Source: an uncultured Erysipelotrichaceae bacterium
GTDB lineage: Bacteria > Bacillota_I > Bacilli_A > Erysipelotrichales > Erysipelotrichaceae
Length of the DNA: 32,846 nucleotides
Assembly: GCA_902793635.1 (NCBI GenBank)
Contig: CADBEA010000025.1
Coordinates: 1-32,846 of the forward strand
Direction of reading: 5' to 3'
Part shown: positions 1 through 27,558 of the stretch, piece by piece
Layout: the number at the start of each line of letters is the position of its first letter
How positions within the stretch are numbered: position 1 is the first letter of the stretch
Position numbers and translations under genes: made by a program
The notes under the pieces: model-generated
The model's input: the letters and a program-made list of their open reading frames with translations, nothing else
Databases searched by the model: none
Told to the model about the DNA's origin: nothing

Positions 1-90
1 CCAGGTGGCTCTCAACTTTCGATATGATGGTTCCCTGAATTCCGTTGTGGTGGCTCCGCACATTTCCGATGTCAGTGCTCCTCAACTCCG
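1..90. mobile_element. Probable IS21-family end remnant
   Basis: Four similar heptamers lie at 5 (GTGGCTC), 27 (ATGGTTC), 50 (GTGGCTC) and 74 (AGTGCTC). They are 22-24 bp apart, about two helical turns. Multiple short repeats with this spacing and a GTGGCTC core are known at the ends of IS21-family elements, where IstA binds. No istA or istB coding sequence is present, because the element would lie to the left of the window. The exact outer end cannot be fixed from the sequence, and the family assignment is by memory of similar ends rather than by alignment. Confidence 0.35.
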
Positions 91-194
91 CCGTATGCAC
101 AAAGATATCAAAAATATCCAAGTAAGTTATCTAGGCCAATTATTACATTATGAATACAGTAGTAATTATTTAGTTATAACGCTTCCAACAGCAT

Positions 195-419
195 TTATTC
201 TGTATCTTTTGTTTTATAACCAAATAATGAATCAATGTATATGTAAGCAAATTGATAGAGATAAGAACTATCTTTTTTTGCGTCAATTGTACCTAAATCC
301 AATTGATCTGTTACATCAGGAATACTATCCCTAAAATTCTTCATTTTAGTCAGATCATATAACATGCTTTCTGGAATAATCTTATCCTGTTGGTTATAGT
401 TCCGATCAGTTGATTGCAT
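195..419 (-). CDS. Possible 74-aa hypothetical ORF or gene remnant
   Basis: This AT-rich reading frame has a charged, Lys/Asp/Asn-rich composition that looks more like coding sequence than the hydrophobic translation of its opposite strand. It starts with MQSTDRN and has no visible Shine-Dalgarno upstream, where only an A/T-rich run is present. Its 5' end overlaps the facing fragment at 410-766, so at least one of the two is broken or not expressed. I do not recognise the protein. A decayed gene piece left beside the insertion-element end is the likeliest reading. Confidence 0.2.
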   Translation of the reverse strand: MQSTDRNYNQQDKIIPESMLYDLTKMKNFRDSIPDVTDQLDLGTIDAKKDSSYLYQFAYIYIDSLFGYKTKDTE

Positions 420-20512: not shown

Positions 20513-21397
20513 TCATTTGTAATCGAAACCGGACGGTTCGTTGAGCGGCTTCTCGAGAAGCTCGGGATTGTCGCAGATATGCTTCAGCAGTTTCAGGCTG
20601 CGGGCGAAGTAGAAACCATCACCGATTCTTTCGTCGATCGTCGCACCGACGTCAATGACATCGCGGATCTCCTTGTGGCCGTCTTCCATCAGGATCTCTT
20701 CCTTATGCAGGGTGCCGATCGTTACCATGATCGAATTGGTTCCGTAGTTGTTCAGATGATGGTACACGGACGGACACTTGATACTGCCCAGGTTGGATAC
20801 CAGGATCGAGGAATAGTTCGGATCGCCGTCGGTCAGGAACTTCGGGTTGACGCCCCAGAAATCCATCCAGCGGATCACCCGGATCGAAGCGGCGAAGATC
20901 GGCCTTGGCAGTGCGGCGAACTTGTCGAGCAGTTCATCAATGCCGCCGGTCGCATGTTCGCTCTTGCGGGCTTCTTTGACATCTCCGATGATCTTCTTTG
21001 AGATTTCATTGACCGTATCAGTCATCTCCGGTATGAAGTACATCAATGTTTCCTCGGCACCGTCGGTAAAGCGGCGCTTGGCAACGAAAGACAGACTGAT
21101 CTCGTTTCTCTGATAAATGCGGTAGCCCTGGATAAAACGGTTCATCTGCGGCCGTTCCACCAGCATTCTCGCCAGAGCCGTGATCATGCAGTGGAAGATC
21201 GTCATCTTCTCTTCTGTTTTGCCTTCGTTCTTCTTTTCCAGATAAGCAATCAGATTTGTCGCGTCGATCGTATCGTGCAGATACACTTCGCAGTCCGTAC
21301 GGTTCGGGAACAGTGCAGTCATGACGGTCTGCAGACCGGGTGCCTTGACCCGTGTACCGTCGCGGCGGTCGCCCCATTTCACCTTTTCTTTTGTCAT
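20513..21397 (-). CDS. Stand-alone 2-oxoacid dehydrogenase E2-type acyltransferase homologue
   Basis: The 294-aa protein consists only of a chloramphenicol-acetyltransferase/E2 catalytic fold: FHCMITALARMLVERPQMNRF, ISLSFVAKRRF, ILVSNLGSIKCPSVYHHL, and VGATIDERIGDGFYFARSL. It has no lipoyl domain or E1/E3-binding domain, and no dehydrogenase genes are nearby. The active-site motif of E2 enzymes is HRxxDG; here it reads ERIGDG (256-261), so the catalytic His is a Glu. The enzyme may therefore have another chemistry or be a binding protein. AGAGGTT stands before the ATG. It is a single-gene unit with a strong terminator. Confidence 0.85.
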   Translation of the reverse strand: MTKEKVKWGDRRDGTRVKAPGLQTVMTALFPNRTDCEVYLHDTIDATNLIAYLEKKNEGKTEEKMTIFHCMITALARMLVERPQMNRFIQGYRIYQRNEISLSFVAKRRFTDGAEETLMYFIPEMTDTVNEISKKIIGDVKEARKSEHATGGIDELLDKFAALPRPIFAASIRVIRWMDFWGVNPKFLTDGDPNYSSILVSNLGSIKCPSVYHHLNNYGTNSIMVTIGTLHKEEILMEDGHKEIRDVIDVGATIDERIGDGFYFARSLKLLKHICDNPELLEKPLNEPSGFDYK

Positions 21398-21978: not shown

Positions 21979-22644
21979 TCAGTTCACATGATCCAGCAGA
22001 TTGAAATATGACACGTCGCTCATCTCGACGCTGCCGTCCGCCTTCTTCCAGGCTGTCGTCACAAACAGCTGCATGACCCCGTTCTCCTCACCTTTGGCAA
22101 GAACGAGATAATTGGTGCCGCTGACAACCTGTCTGGCCAAAAGAGCCAACGGATACAGCACAGCGCCTTCATACTGATCAGCTGCCAGATTGTAGTCAGT
22201 GAAAATATCCTGCGGCAGTGTGATGGCGTTGGCGATCTCTTTGTTCACACTCCAGCCGCCGACCAGATCAGCCGGGACACCCTGTTTGCCGGCCGCATCC
22301 GGAATTTTGATTTCCTTGACGGATGTGATTGCCGCTTCATGTGTCGCGGTTTCATAGATGACCGCGATCACCCATTCAGGCTGTTCTTCATCGTCATTCA
22401 GACACAGATAGGCATAATTCATGCCGGAAACCACCTGGGTGGCCACAACAGTCACTGGGATCAGGGTCGCATAACCACCGTCCGCGGCTCTTGCCTGCTC
22501 AAACAGCAGTTCTTCTTCCTCACGCAGAACGGGCGTGAATTCCGTATTGATTTCCCAGCCGCCGAGGTCCTGGTTACCAACCCCGGTGCCGAAACAGCCG
22601 CACAGCAATACAGCCGCCAGAACGGCAATACCTGTTTTTTTCAT
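21979..22644 (-). CDS. Lipoprotein with two cystatin-like domains
   Basis: The start MKKTGIAVLAAVLLCGC gives a lipoprotein signal with lipobox LCGC and Cys17 as the lipid site, so the product is anchored outside the membrane. GGAGAGAG precedes this ATG; the longer frame has no signal peptide. Two similar ~95-residue units follow. Each has GGW (28-30 and 129-131), a helix, and QVVSG (70-74 and 172-176) followed by a Tyr, then a paired-strand end. GG and QVVSG are 42-43 residues apart, close to the spacing of the conserved Gly and QxVxG loop in true cystatins, which block papain- or legumain-like cysteine proteases. Inhibitor function is inferred, and similar bacterial domains are of unknown role. 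Confidence 0.75.
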   Translation of the reverse strand: MKKTGIAVLAAVLLCGCFGTGVGNQDLGGWEINTEFTPVLREEEELLFEQARAADGGYATLIPVTVVATQVVSGMNYAYLCLNDDEEQPEWVIAVIYETATHEAAITSVKEIKIPDAAGKQGVPADLVGGWSVNKEIANAITLPQDIFTDYNLAADQYEGAVLYPLALLARQVVSGTNYLVLAKGEENGVMQLFVTTAWKKADGSVEMSDVSYFNLLDHVN

Positions 22645-22669
22645 GATGTTCACTCTCTCCATGATGGCA

Positions 22670-24921: not shown

Positions 24922-27558
24922 CTATTTTGTGAAATGACTCTCGGCGAATTCGGAAGTGAAGGTGCGCTGATAGACGTCCTGCATGACGACGCCATAGCGC
25001 AGATCACACTCACCGATCGGCTCGTCCGTGACTTTCAGGTTGCTCATGCTGGAAAGCCGGATCGAGTGGCCGTGCGTGTCTGTCTTCACCACTTTGCCTT
25101 CTTCGTCATAGTAGTCAAACAGGAAGGAGATGACTTCACCTGGCTTCAGTTCCTGCAGACCTTTTTCCATGAAGGCACTGTCTTCATTGGTGAGACGGTA
25201 GCCGACTACATGTCCGTTGGTCGGAATCTCATCATCAGCAACGATCGGATCCCACTCAATGTACAGGGTGATCTCTTCGCCGTTGAGACTGGCCCGGACG
25301 GTGCCCTTCTGAATGACGCCGTTCTCATTGGTGACAGCCGGCTGTGCTTCATAGTTGACGACCTGACCGTTGATATGTACCCAGCGGCCGGTTGCGGCAA
25401 CCATCGGGTGATCGTTCTCGTCATAGGCAGCCGGAATGTCGCGGCCAAGATACATCCAGCCGTCCTCCGTCTTCATATAAACGACCTGATTGGCTTCCGC
25501 GATGATATTCCAGGCTGTATCCGGCAGCTGCATCTGCCAGCCGTCTTCCTTTTCAACCAGCGGAATATCCACGACAGCCTGCGTTGTTTCATAGTTCTCA
25601 AAGTCTTTGATATACCATTCTTCCTTGGTATAATCGTCGGTCGACAGCTGAAAACCGAAGATTTCGGGAGCCTTGAATTCCAGTTTGCGGACAGCCGCCA
25701 TAATACTGAAGAAGTCGTCATATAACTTCCGGCAGGTTTCCATACCGAGTTTTTCGTACTGGATATGGTCGCGGCCGTAAGAAGAGATCATCTTGTACGG
25801 GAAGGACACCGCGAGACCGTTGATGCCGTCATGGGACATGGCGTTCCGGCAGACGATGCTGGCTTTGACGTAATTGATCACTTCTTTGATCTCTTCCGGT
25901 GTCGCGATCGAATCGTTATAGTCGGCATGATCCAGCAGTTCCAGGTAATCGACCAGGTCGATCTGTTCGTCACCCGTGAAGGCAGTCGCCTTGCCGGCGG
26001 CAATCGAGATATCCGCGTAGTCGGCCGAATCGGCAAGGAACGCGGCATGTTCTTTCTCATAGAGAGCCATCAGTTTGTCGAAGGCCGGCCGGATCCTGGT
26101 CAGATCGATCAGCGACAGAGTGGAACCGCTGTTGTCTAACTTCTCATGCATAACCCTGAGGTTGACGTCATAAGCAGAGATGATTTCTTTGCCAAATTCT
26201 TCCATGCTGGTGGTCGGATCCTTTGCCAGCATGCCGAAGGCCGATGTATAGAACCAGCCTTCACCGGATTCTGTTTCTTCCGATGCCAGATAGTAGTCGG
26301 CATACGGTTCCATGGCCACGGCGATTTCGATATCCTGCATCAGGCAGGCATCAAAGCCGATCATATCAAATTTCACACCGGCCCGGTCGATCGCGGAAAC
26401 GATCTCATTGACCGGCAGCGCTCCGTACTTGGTATCCTTGCGTTCGTTCAGAACATCCTGGCCATAACCGCTCGGCAGACCTCCGCCATGATCCCAGAGA
26501 ACCAGCATATAACGGTCCGCCGGATAATTTTCTTTTGTCCAGGTGATGAAATTGTACAGTTCATCCTCCATGCACATGCATACTTTGTCACCGAGGTTTT
26601 CCTTCATGGTCAGCTTGCCGTCCGCGATTTCATAGAGACCGACGGTGCTGTGCTTGACACCGCTGGTAAACCAGCGCTTGGTGCCGCCTGCTTCAACGAC
26701 GAATTTCAGAGCGGAGCCCTGCTCGGTCGCATCCAGCATCTGACGAAGATTGATCGTTGCCATGCCCATGGCATCTTCCAGGTTGGAGCCGATGACATAT
26801 TCCATGACGACGACACTTTCGTCTTTGGAATGATCCGGGAAGAAGTAGTCACGGCTGGTCGGGAACGAGGCAAGATCATGATATGCATCACCCATAGTGT
26901 CATTCCGCAGCATGACACTGCCGTCACCTTTCACGTCTTTTGCGGTTTCGTAGAAATCCTGCAGCATCAGATAAACGACCGGCTCAGGCATATAGTTGCG
27001 CAGGGTCAGGAAACCGACCACTCCGAACGAAACCACGAATACCGCCGCAAAGCCAAGCTCGCGCAGAATCGTGAAACCGATCTGTATCCATCTGGCACGG
27101 ATGATCTTTCTTTTGAAGACCGGCCCGCCGTAAAACACTGATTTTTTACTGCCCAGCAGGATCAGAAACAGAGCCGGTAACATGATCATGCCAATGCGGA
27201 ACAGAACACTCTTTTTAAAGCACTTACCAAGCCGCCAGTACAGGTTGATCAGGAAAATGCCGTATACGATCAGCGCGACGATGATCAGCAGCCGGGCCGT
27301 CACGACAGCCATCTTGTCCGCGGCATTGCTCATATACATGCCGGCAGCCAGATTCAGACCGGCAATGACCAGCGGATGCCAGTAGGAACTCATGCTTTCA
27401 AACAGGATCGTCGAAAGCTTTCCTTCCGCCGCAAACGGAACGATTGCCCACTTTCCGTCCATGTCGACTTTCCGCAGTACGCGGAAATAACCGATGGACT
27501 GAAGGATCCATGGAATGATCCAGAAAACAGGCTTTGTAAAATAATAGATCAGCAACAT
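24922..27558 (-). CDS. Membrane-anchored clostripain-like (C11) cysteine protease
   Basis: The 878-aa protein has about five N-terminal hydrophobic segments (near residues 5-22, 62-80, 88-108, 118-136 and 165-185), then a long hydrophilic part. The catalytic pair of family C11 is plain: LWDHGGG with His357 and GFDACLM with Cys405. VMEYVIGSNLEDAMGMAT and FVVEAGG match the upstream part of clostripain domains. C11 proteases cut after basic residues and are often calcium-activated and self-processed. The C-terminal ~250 residues form a beta-rich extension. GGGAGAG precedes the ATG. It stands 2.3 kb from the cystatin-like lipoprotein, with bcp-yaaA between. It could act in processing of surface or host proteins. 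Confidence 0.92.
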   Translation of the reverse strand: MLLIYYFTKPVFWIIPWILQSIGYFRVLRKVDMDGKWAIVPFAAEGKLSTILFESMSSYWHPLVIAGLNLAAGMYMSNAADKMAVVTARLLIIVALIVYGIFLINLYWRLGKCFKKSVLFRIGMIMLPALFLILLGSKKSVFYGGPVFKRKIIRARWIQIGFTILRELGFAAVFVVSFGVVGFLTLRNYMPEPVVYLMLQDFYETAKDVKGDGSVMLRNDTMGDAYHDLASFPTSRDYFFPDHSKDESVVVMEYVIGSNLEDAMGMATINLRQMLDATEQGSALKFVVEAGGTKRWFTSGVKHSTVGLYEIADGKLTMKENLGDKVCMCMEDELYNFITWTKENYPADRYMLVLWDHGGGLPSGYGQDVLNERKDTKYGALPVNEIVSAIDRAGVKFDMIGFDACLMQDIEIAVAMEPYADYYLASEETESGEGWFYTSAFGMLAKDPTTSMEEFGKEIISAYDVNLRVMHEKLDNSGSTLSLIDLTRIRPAFDKLMALYEKEHAAFLADSADYADISIAAGKATAFTGDEQIDLVDYLELLDHADYNDSIATPEEIKEVINYVKASIVCRNAMSHDGINGLAVSFPYKMISSYGRDHIQYEKLGMETCRKLYDDFFSIMAAVRKLEFKAPEIFGFQLSTDDYTKEEWYIKDFENYETTQAVVDIPLVEKEDGWQMQLPDTAWNIIAEANQVVYMKTEDGWMYLGRDIPAAYDENDHPMVAATGRWVHINGQVVNYEAQPAVTNENGVIQKGTVRASLNGEEITLYIEWDPIVADDEIPTNGHVVGYRLTNEDSAFMEKGLQELKPGEVISFLFDYYDEEGKVVKTDTHGHSIRLSSMSNLKVTDEPIGECDLRYGVVMQDVYQRTFTSEFAESHFTK

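Follow-up and report, generated by a model that had tools for sequence, protein, structure and literature searches.

A tandem cystatin-like lipoprotein encoded by an uncultured Erysipelotrichaceae bacterium

A gene on the minus strand at 21979..22644 (stop codon included) encodes a 221-amino-acid lipoprotein with two tandem domains, whose cystatin ancestry and fold we regard as very nearly certain. It lies in the window analyzed here, a stretch of 32,846 nucleotides from an uncultured Erysipelotrichaceae bacterium. The lipoprotein probably acts as an inhibitor of papain-family (C1) cysteine proteases that come from outside the cell. The initial annotation had described a tandem cystatin-like lipoprotein, and this description is now backed by two structure predictions, a fold comparison, a profile search of the PDB and the conservation of the papain-contact motif.

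The open reading frame (ORF) runs from an ATG at 22644 to a stop at 21979, and a ribosome-site-like sequence, GGAGAGAGT (22652..22660, minus strand), was read 7 bases 5′ of the ATG. The encoded N-terminus is MKKTGIAVLAAVLLCGC, with a lipoprotein signal peptide at residues 1-16 followed by the lipobox cysteine Cys17 (LLCG-C; 22594..22644, minus strand). Cys17 was invariant in all 27 aligned homologues. The closest orthologue, L044, is 84% identical to the lipoprotein. The dN/dS ratio between the two genes was 0.18 over the full length, with values of 0.18 for domain 1 and 0.16 for domain 2, which indicates purifying selection and, therefore, a real gene.

The lipobox cysteine of lipoproteins anchors the attached domains outside the membrane. 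The invariant Cys17 therefore suggests that the cystatin domains are exposed at the surface, outside the membrane. A wall-side location is also supported by a relative in Coriobacteriia (L086:241-2067, plus strand), in which five PASTA repeats (Pfam, E = 1.9e-67) lie between a hydrophobic N-terminal segment and two cystatin domains. PASTA repeats bind the cell wall, and this fusion would be a peptidoglycan-associated version of the protein.

Each of the two repeats carries a GGW, a helix and a QVVSG-x-NY. In domain 1, these are G28-G29-W30 (22555..22563, minus strand), which supplies the N-terminal glycine of the inhibitory edge, and the first hairpin loop QVVSG from Q70, in the context QVVSGMNY (22423..22437, minus strand). 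In domain 2, they are G129-G130-W131 (22252..22260, minus strand), with G129 invariant in the alignment, and QVVSG from Q172, in the context QVVSGTNY (22117..22131, minus strand). The spacing from the glycine pair to QVVSG-x-NY is 42 residues in repeat 1 and 43 residues in repeat 2. This pattern of two units had been noted initially from the sequence; its coordinates and spacings proved exact, and it is conserved in homologues. Both hallmarks of the cystatin superfamily (MEROPS I25), an N-terminal glycine (here GG before W) and QxVxG, are thus present in both domains. Local alignment of repeat 1 with repeat 2 gave a score of 94, compared with a mean of 25.2 (sd 4.8) in 2000 shuffles (z = 14.4), none of which reached 94. 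The two repeats are related beyond chance.

The structure predictions agreed with these motifs. The domain model of residues 27-115 (domain 1; 22300..22566, minus strand) had a pLDDT of 86.9, and the full-length AlphaFold model, built with 16 sequences and covering domain 2 at residues 126-221 (21982..22269, minus strand), had a mean pLDDT of 81 and a pTM of 0.79. The full-length model shows the order beta-alpha-beta-beta-beta-beta twice. In the models and their structural alignments, we found the cystatin fold, namely a five-stranded antiparallel sheet around one helix in the order beta1-alpha1-beta2-3-4-5. The best alignment of the domain 1 model was with CsStefin-1 (5zc1; Z 9.1, 2.6 Å, 82 residues), followed by tarocystatin (Z 8.6), Dictyostelium cystatin A2 (8gqq; 8.5), potato multicystatin (8.4), ricistatin (8.1) and stefin B in complex with papain (1stf; 7.9), Z scores near 8-9 being moderate by the aligning tool's own note. 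In domain 2, the stretch 142-214 of the full-length model aligned with cystatin-based scaffolds. A Foldseek search with the full-length model returned a sesame phytocystatin first (E = 1.1e-5) and potato multicystatin second (E = 9.1e-4); NTF2-like and VirB8 folds, which share an alpha-beta roll, were also among its matches. Domain 1 alone gave no Foldseek match with E < 0.001, and the BFVD structure search returned nothing with E < 0.001. The comparison of predicted fold with cystatins that had been proposed at the outset thus gave a fold not unlike theirs.

The full-length model aligned over ranges such as 25..214, so that strand 1 may have been attributed to the neighboring domain. Because the model of domain 1 by itself forms a single compact cystatin fold, we read these ranges as ambiguity of the prediction and rejected a domain swap.

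Taken singly, the lipoprotein sequence is only suggestive of a cystatin. Its best Pfam match was SQAPI (18.5 bits, E = 0.0027, below the cut-off of 31), Cystatin also scored below its cut-off (15.8 bits, E = 0.017, cut-off 22.2), and NCBIfam gave no match to the lipoprotein. The two best matches of a single-sequence phmmer search against the PDB were cystatins, with E-values of 0.3 and 0.49. Once relatives are included, the case becomes strong. When a profile of 31 domains (A4) was searched against 177,635 PDB sequences at E up to 10, all 17 distinct matches were cystatins or stefins, the best with E = 0.0038. It would be hard to explain why fold, motif, spacing and profile all agree if the domains were not cystatins.

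For 46 distinct two-domain proteins, some of them retrieved by a DNA pattern that included part of the motif and others by whole-protein similarity, we compared the two domains. In domain 1, the Q, V and G of QxVxG were invariant (46/46), a core leucine being the sole other invariant column; the asparagine two residues after QxVxG was present in 45 of the 46, and the GGW was also well kept (Gly in 85%, Trp in 93%). In domain 2, QxVxG was kept in 37 proteins and lost or altered in 9. Domain 1 is thus the constant site.

The type of cystatin was examined by further traits. The PW of the second hairpin, typical of type-2 cystatins and phytocystatins, was found in 0 of 96 domains. The two disulphides of type-2 cystatins are absent, as domain 1 of the window protein has one cysteine and domain 2 has none, and no conserved cysteine pair was found among the top alignment columns of the domains. 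This lack of disulphides is shared with stefins. The asparagine site of legumain-acting cystatins is not conserved: the alpha1-beta2 loop of domain 1 of the window protein has no N, and of the 96 domains, 31 have an N in this loop, with no fixed position. Judged by these sequence traits (PW, disulphides and Asn loop), the lipoprotein resembles stefins more than it does type-2 or plant cystatins. Its lipoprotein signal with the invariant Cys17 nevertheless sets it apart from canonical stefins, which have no signal peptide.

In the mechanism that we propose, the protein would be anchored to the membrane as an extracellular lipoprotein, with two domains of cystatin fold derived from one ancestral duplication. 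The N-terminal glycine strand and the QVVSG hairpin would enter the active-site cleft of the protease, as in stefins and cystatins. Domain 1 would serve as the constant inhibitory unit and domain 2 as an additional site, now decayed in some relatives. We infer both this inhibition and its target.

Some cystatin-fold proteins, such as monellin and SQAPI, do not inhibit cysteine proteases. The domains could, therefore, have cystatin fold and ancestry and still act otherwise, as a surface binding scaffold (for adhesion or for a ligand) or as an inhibitor of another protease class, as SQAPI is for aspartic proteases. SQAPI rather than Cystatin as the top Pfam match, the missing PW of the second loop and the loss of QxVxG in 9 of 46 second domains would fit such a role, as would accessory DUF4430 and Lipocalin_4 domains in relatives. 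We nevertheless consider it unlikely, since the papain-contact Q, V and G are fully invariant in domain 1 and a mere scaffold would not need them. Within the set L039, L040, L041, L043, L045, L007 and L021, some proteins carry an additional DUF4430-like domain at the N-terminus and others a Lipocalin_4-like domain at the C-terminus.

If inhibition of papain-family proteases is the function, a target has to be sought inside or outside the producing organism. The sole C1-family match in its own genome was a PepC-type C1B peptidase of 445 amino acids (Peptidase_C1_2, E = 1.6e-168) without a signal peptide. No secreted papain-family protease was found in this genome, whose assembly is 95% complete, so that a missed C1 gene is possible; this makes an external target likelier than a self target. 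Legumain-acting cystatins use an asparagine loop between alpha1 and beta2, and legumain is related to the C11 (clostripain) family. A C11 gene is located 2.3 kb upstream of the lipoprotein gene, at 24922-27558 on the minus strand. Its product has 878 amino acids with hydrophobic N-terminal segments and a C11 domain (E = 3.7e-33), and the genome encodes a second C11 protein elsewhere. The L044 contig alone retains the upstream neighbors (C11, AhpC, YaaA and an alpha/beta hydrolase). A shared operon or neighborhood was rejected: the 14 other loci had no consistent neighbor, and no conserved neighborhood naming a target was found across L044 and these 14. The ORF at 20513-21397 (minus strand) encodes a 294-amino-acid protein with a 2-oxoacid dehydrogenase acyltransferase catalytic domain, for which Pfam reports no lipoyl domain.

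Regulation of extracellular cysteine proteases made by the organism itself, such as the C11 protein 2.3 kb away, is a quite improbable role. The C11 gene stays nearby in the L044 contig, and apparently secreted C1 proteins, either large or with a lipobox, are encoded in some genomes of the genus, but the neighborhood is lost in other homologues, the asparagine site for clan CD proteases such as legumain is not conserved and is missing from the domain 1 loop of the window protein, and the organism's own genome has no secreted C1 protease. Most PF00112 matches in the genus looked PepC-like (a C-terminal match in frames of 440-490 amino acids). Co-occurrence with papain-like proteases was also rejected, as genomes with an apparently secreted C1 protein were, by inspection, not visibly richer in the lipoprotein. 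Two papain-family proteins of the same genus have a Lectin_like domain (L050:1-2409 and L051:910-2343), one of them with a lipobox. The initial annotation had proposed protection from host or self cysteine proteases; the self branch is weakened by the intracellular PepC as the sole C1 match and by the unconserved legumain-type asparagine loop. That the resemblance to cystatins arose by convergence or chance without cystatin ancestry, as the weak Pfam scores and the alpha-beta roll common to NTF2-like and VirB8 folds might suggest, is highly improbable, since the 17 PDB profile matches were all cystatins and since the position of the motif, the spacing and the order of the strands are all in agreement.

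For an inhibitor of external C1 proteases, candidate sources of the target in the ruminant gut would be ciliates, host cathepsins and plant feed. In rumen protozoa, peptidases are highly expressed, engulfed bacteria are digested, and cysteine peptidases probably matter in proteolysis (PMC6908469). The relatives with named records were ruminant-gut MAGs, from sheep, goat, roe deer, water deer and RUG (rumen) assemblies, labeled Solobacterium, Erysipelotrichaceae and, once, Coriobacteriaceae.

The distribution of the family is patchy. The organism's own genome encodes a second paralogue (C42:21796-22392) with 34% identity. A match at E up to 1e-3 was present in 36 of the 60 genomes examined from the genus and in none of 40 other genomes of the order. 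In the class, 4 of 395 genomes matched the domain profile: its own genome, one from another genus of the family, one from a different family, where two one-domain matches lie next to each other in short frames, and a marginal one. A phylum-wide draw gave 2 of 392. In Coriobacteriia, the class of the Coriobacteriaceae relative, 10 of 296 sampled genomes matched, mostly with two-domain proteins, 56-66% G+C and lipobox-like starts. One weak plasmid match (Persicobacter, E = 2e-3) and a single-domain relative, L089, which lies beside cellular-looking genes on an IMG/VR contig, were taken as no evidence of a mobile carrier for this family, and carriage by plasmid or phage was rejected.

In a domain tree, second domains of both phyla grouped together (44 rows, SH-aLRT 99), in a group that also included two first domains and one single domain. 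The second domain of the window protein grouped with mainly Coriobacteriia second domains (support 91), in a tree of few columns whose finer branching is unsafe. As second domains of both phyla fall in one group, the domain duplication is most likely older than the phylum split, and the two-domain gene most likely moved between Bacillota and Actinomycetota.

Cystatins are known mostly from animals and plants. The view that they are chiefly eukaryotic, taken in the initial annotation, holds in this sense and has to be qualified, for bacterial genes of the superfamily have been on record since 2009 (PMC2784779). Kordis and Turk described stefins and cystatins from a small number of bacteria, with a patchy spread from which horizontal transfer was inferred, and defence against host proteases was proposed for the bacterial cystatins (PMC2784779). 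Bacterial cystatins have been described from genomes (PMC2784779, PMC3594739), and a 2012 review wanted experimental data before a role is assigned (PMC3594739). The lipoprotein shares with the bacterial stefins its superfamily, the conserved QxVxG and the patchy spread; those are cytoplasmic-type single domains, seen among Firmicutes in Clostridia only (PMC2784779), whereas the present protein has two domains and a lipoprotein anchor and belongs to a lineage outside Clostridia. Three single-domain relatives without a signal (L060:1809-2075, L079:1501-1779 and L089:2986-3258) are likely the bacterial stefins of the literature. A bacterial multidomain cystatin is known from Polaribacter (EAQ42446), set apart by its description as a three-domain protein fused to another gene in Bacteroidetes (PMC2784779). 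Plant multicystatins (potato, PDB 4lzi and 2w9p) match by structure and also have tandem cystatin domains, but they have more domains, a PW loop and no lipid anchor, with an identity of about 15-20%. Type-1 cystatins (CsStefin-1, stefin B, Dictyostelium A2) share the single-domain fold, a QVVAGTNY-type loop, the absence of conserved disulphides and the best structural scores, but they are cytosolic or without a lipobox and not tandem. No report of a two-domain cystatin lipoprotein was found in a literature search that had most subscription journals outside its reach. Bacterial cystatins, including multidomain ones, are thus known, and the two-domain lipoprotein version appears to be new.

We tentatively suggest that surface tandem cystatins may shield ruminant-gut bacteria from eukaryotic papain-family proteases of ciliate, host or plant origin, and that this shield may have been traded between Bacillota and Actinomycetota. 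The family offers a compact, soluble and testable case, with two sites under different constraint, a likely cell-surface location, a clear habitat and many natural variants, including second domains that lack the motif. If the domains do inhibit cysteine proteases, the family would be an example of a gut bacterial lineage that maintains a protease inhibitor of eukaryotic type on its surface, and it would provide a natural indicator of the pressure that cysteine proteases exert in the ruminant gut.
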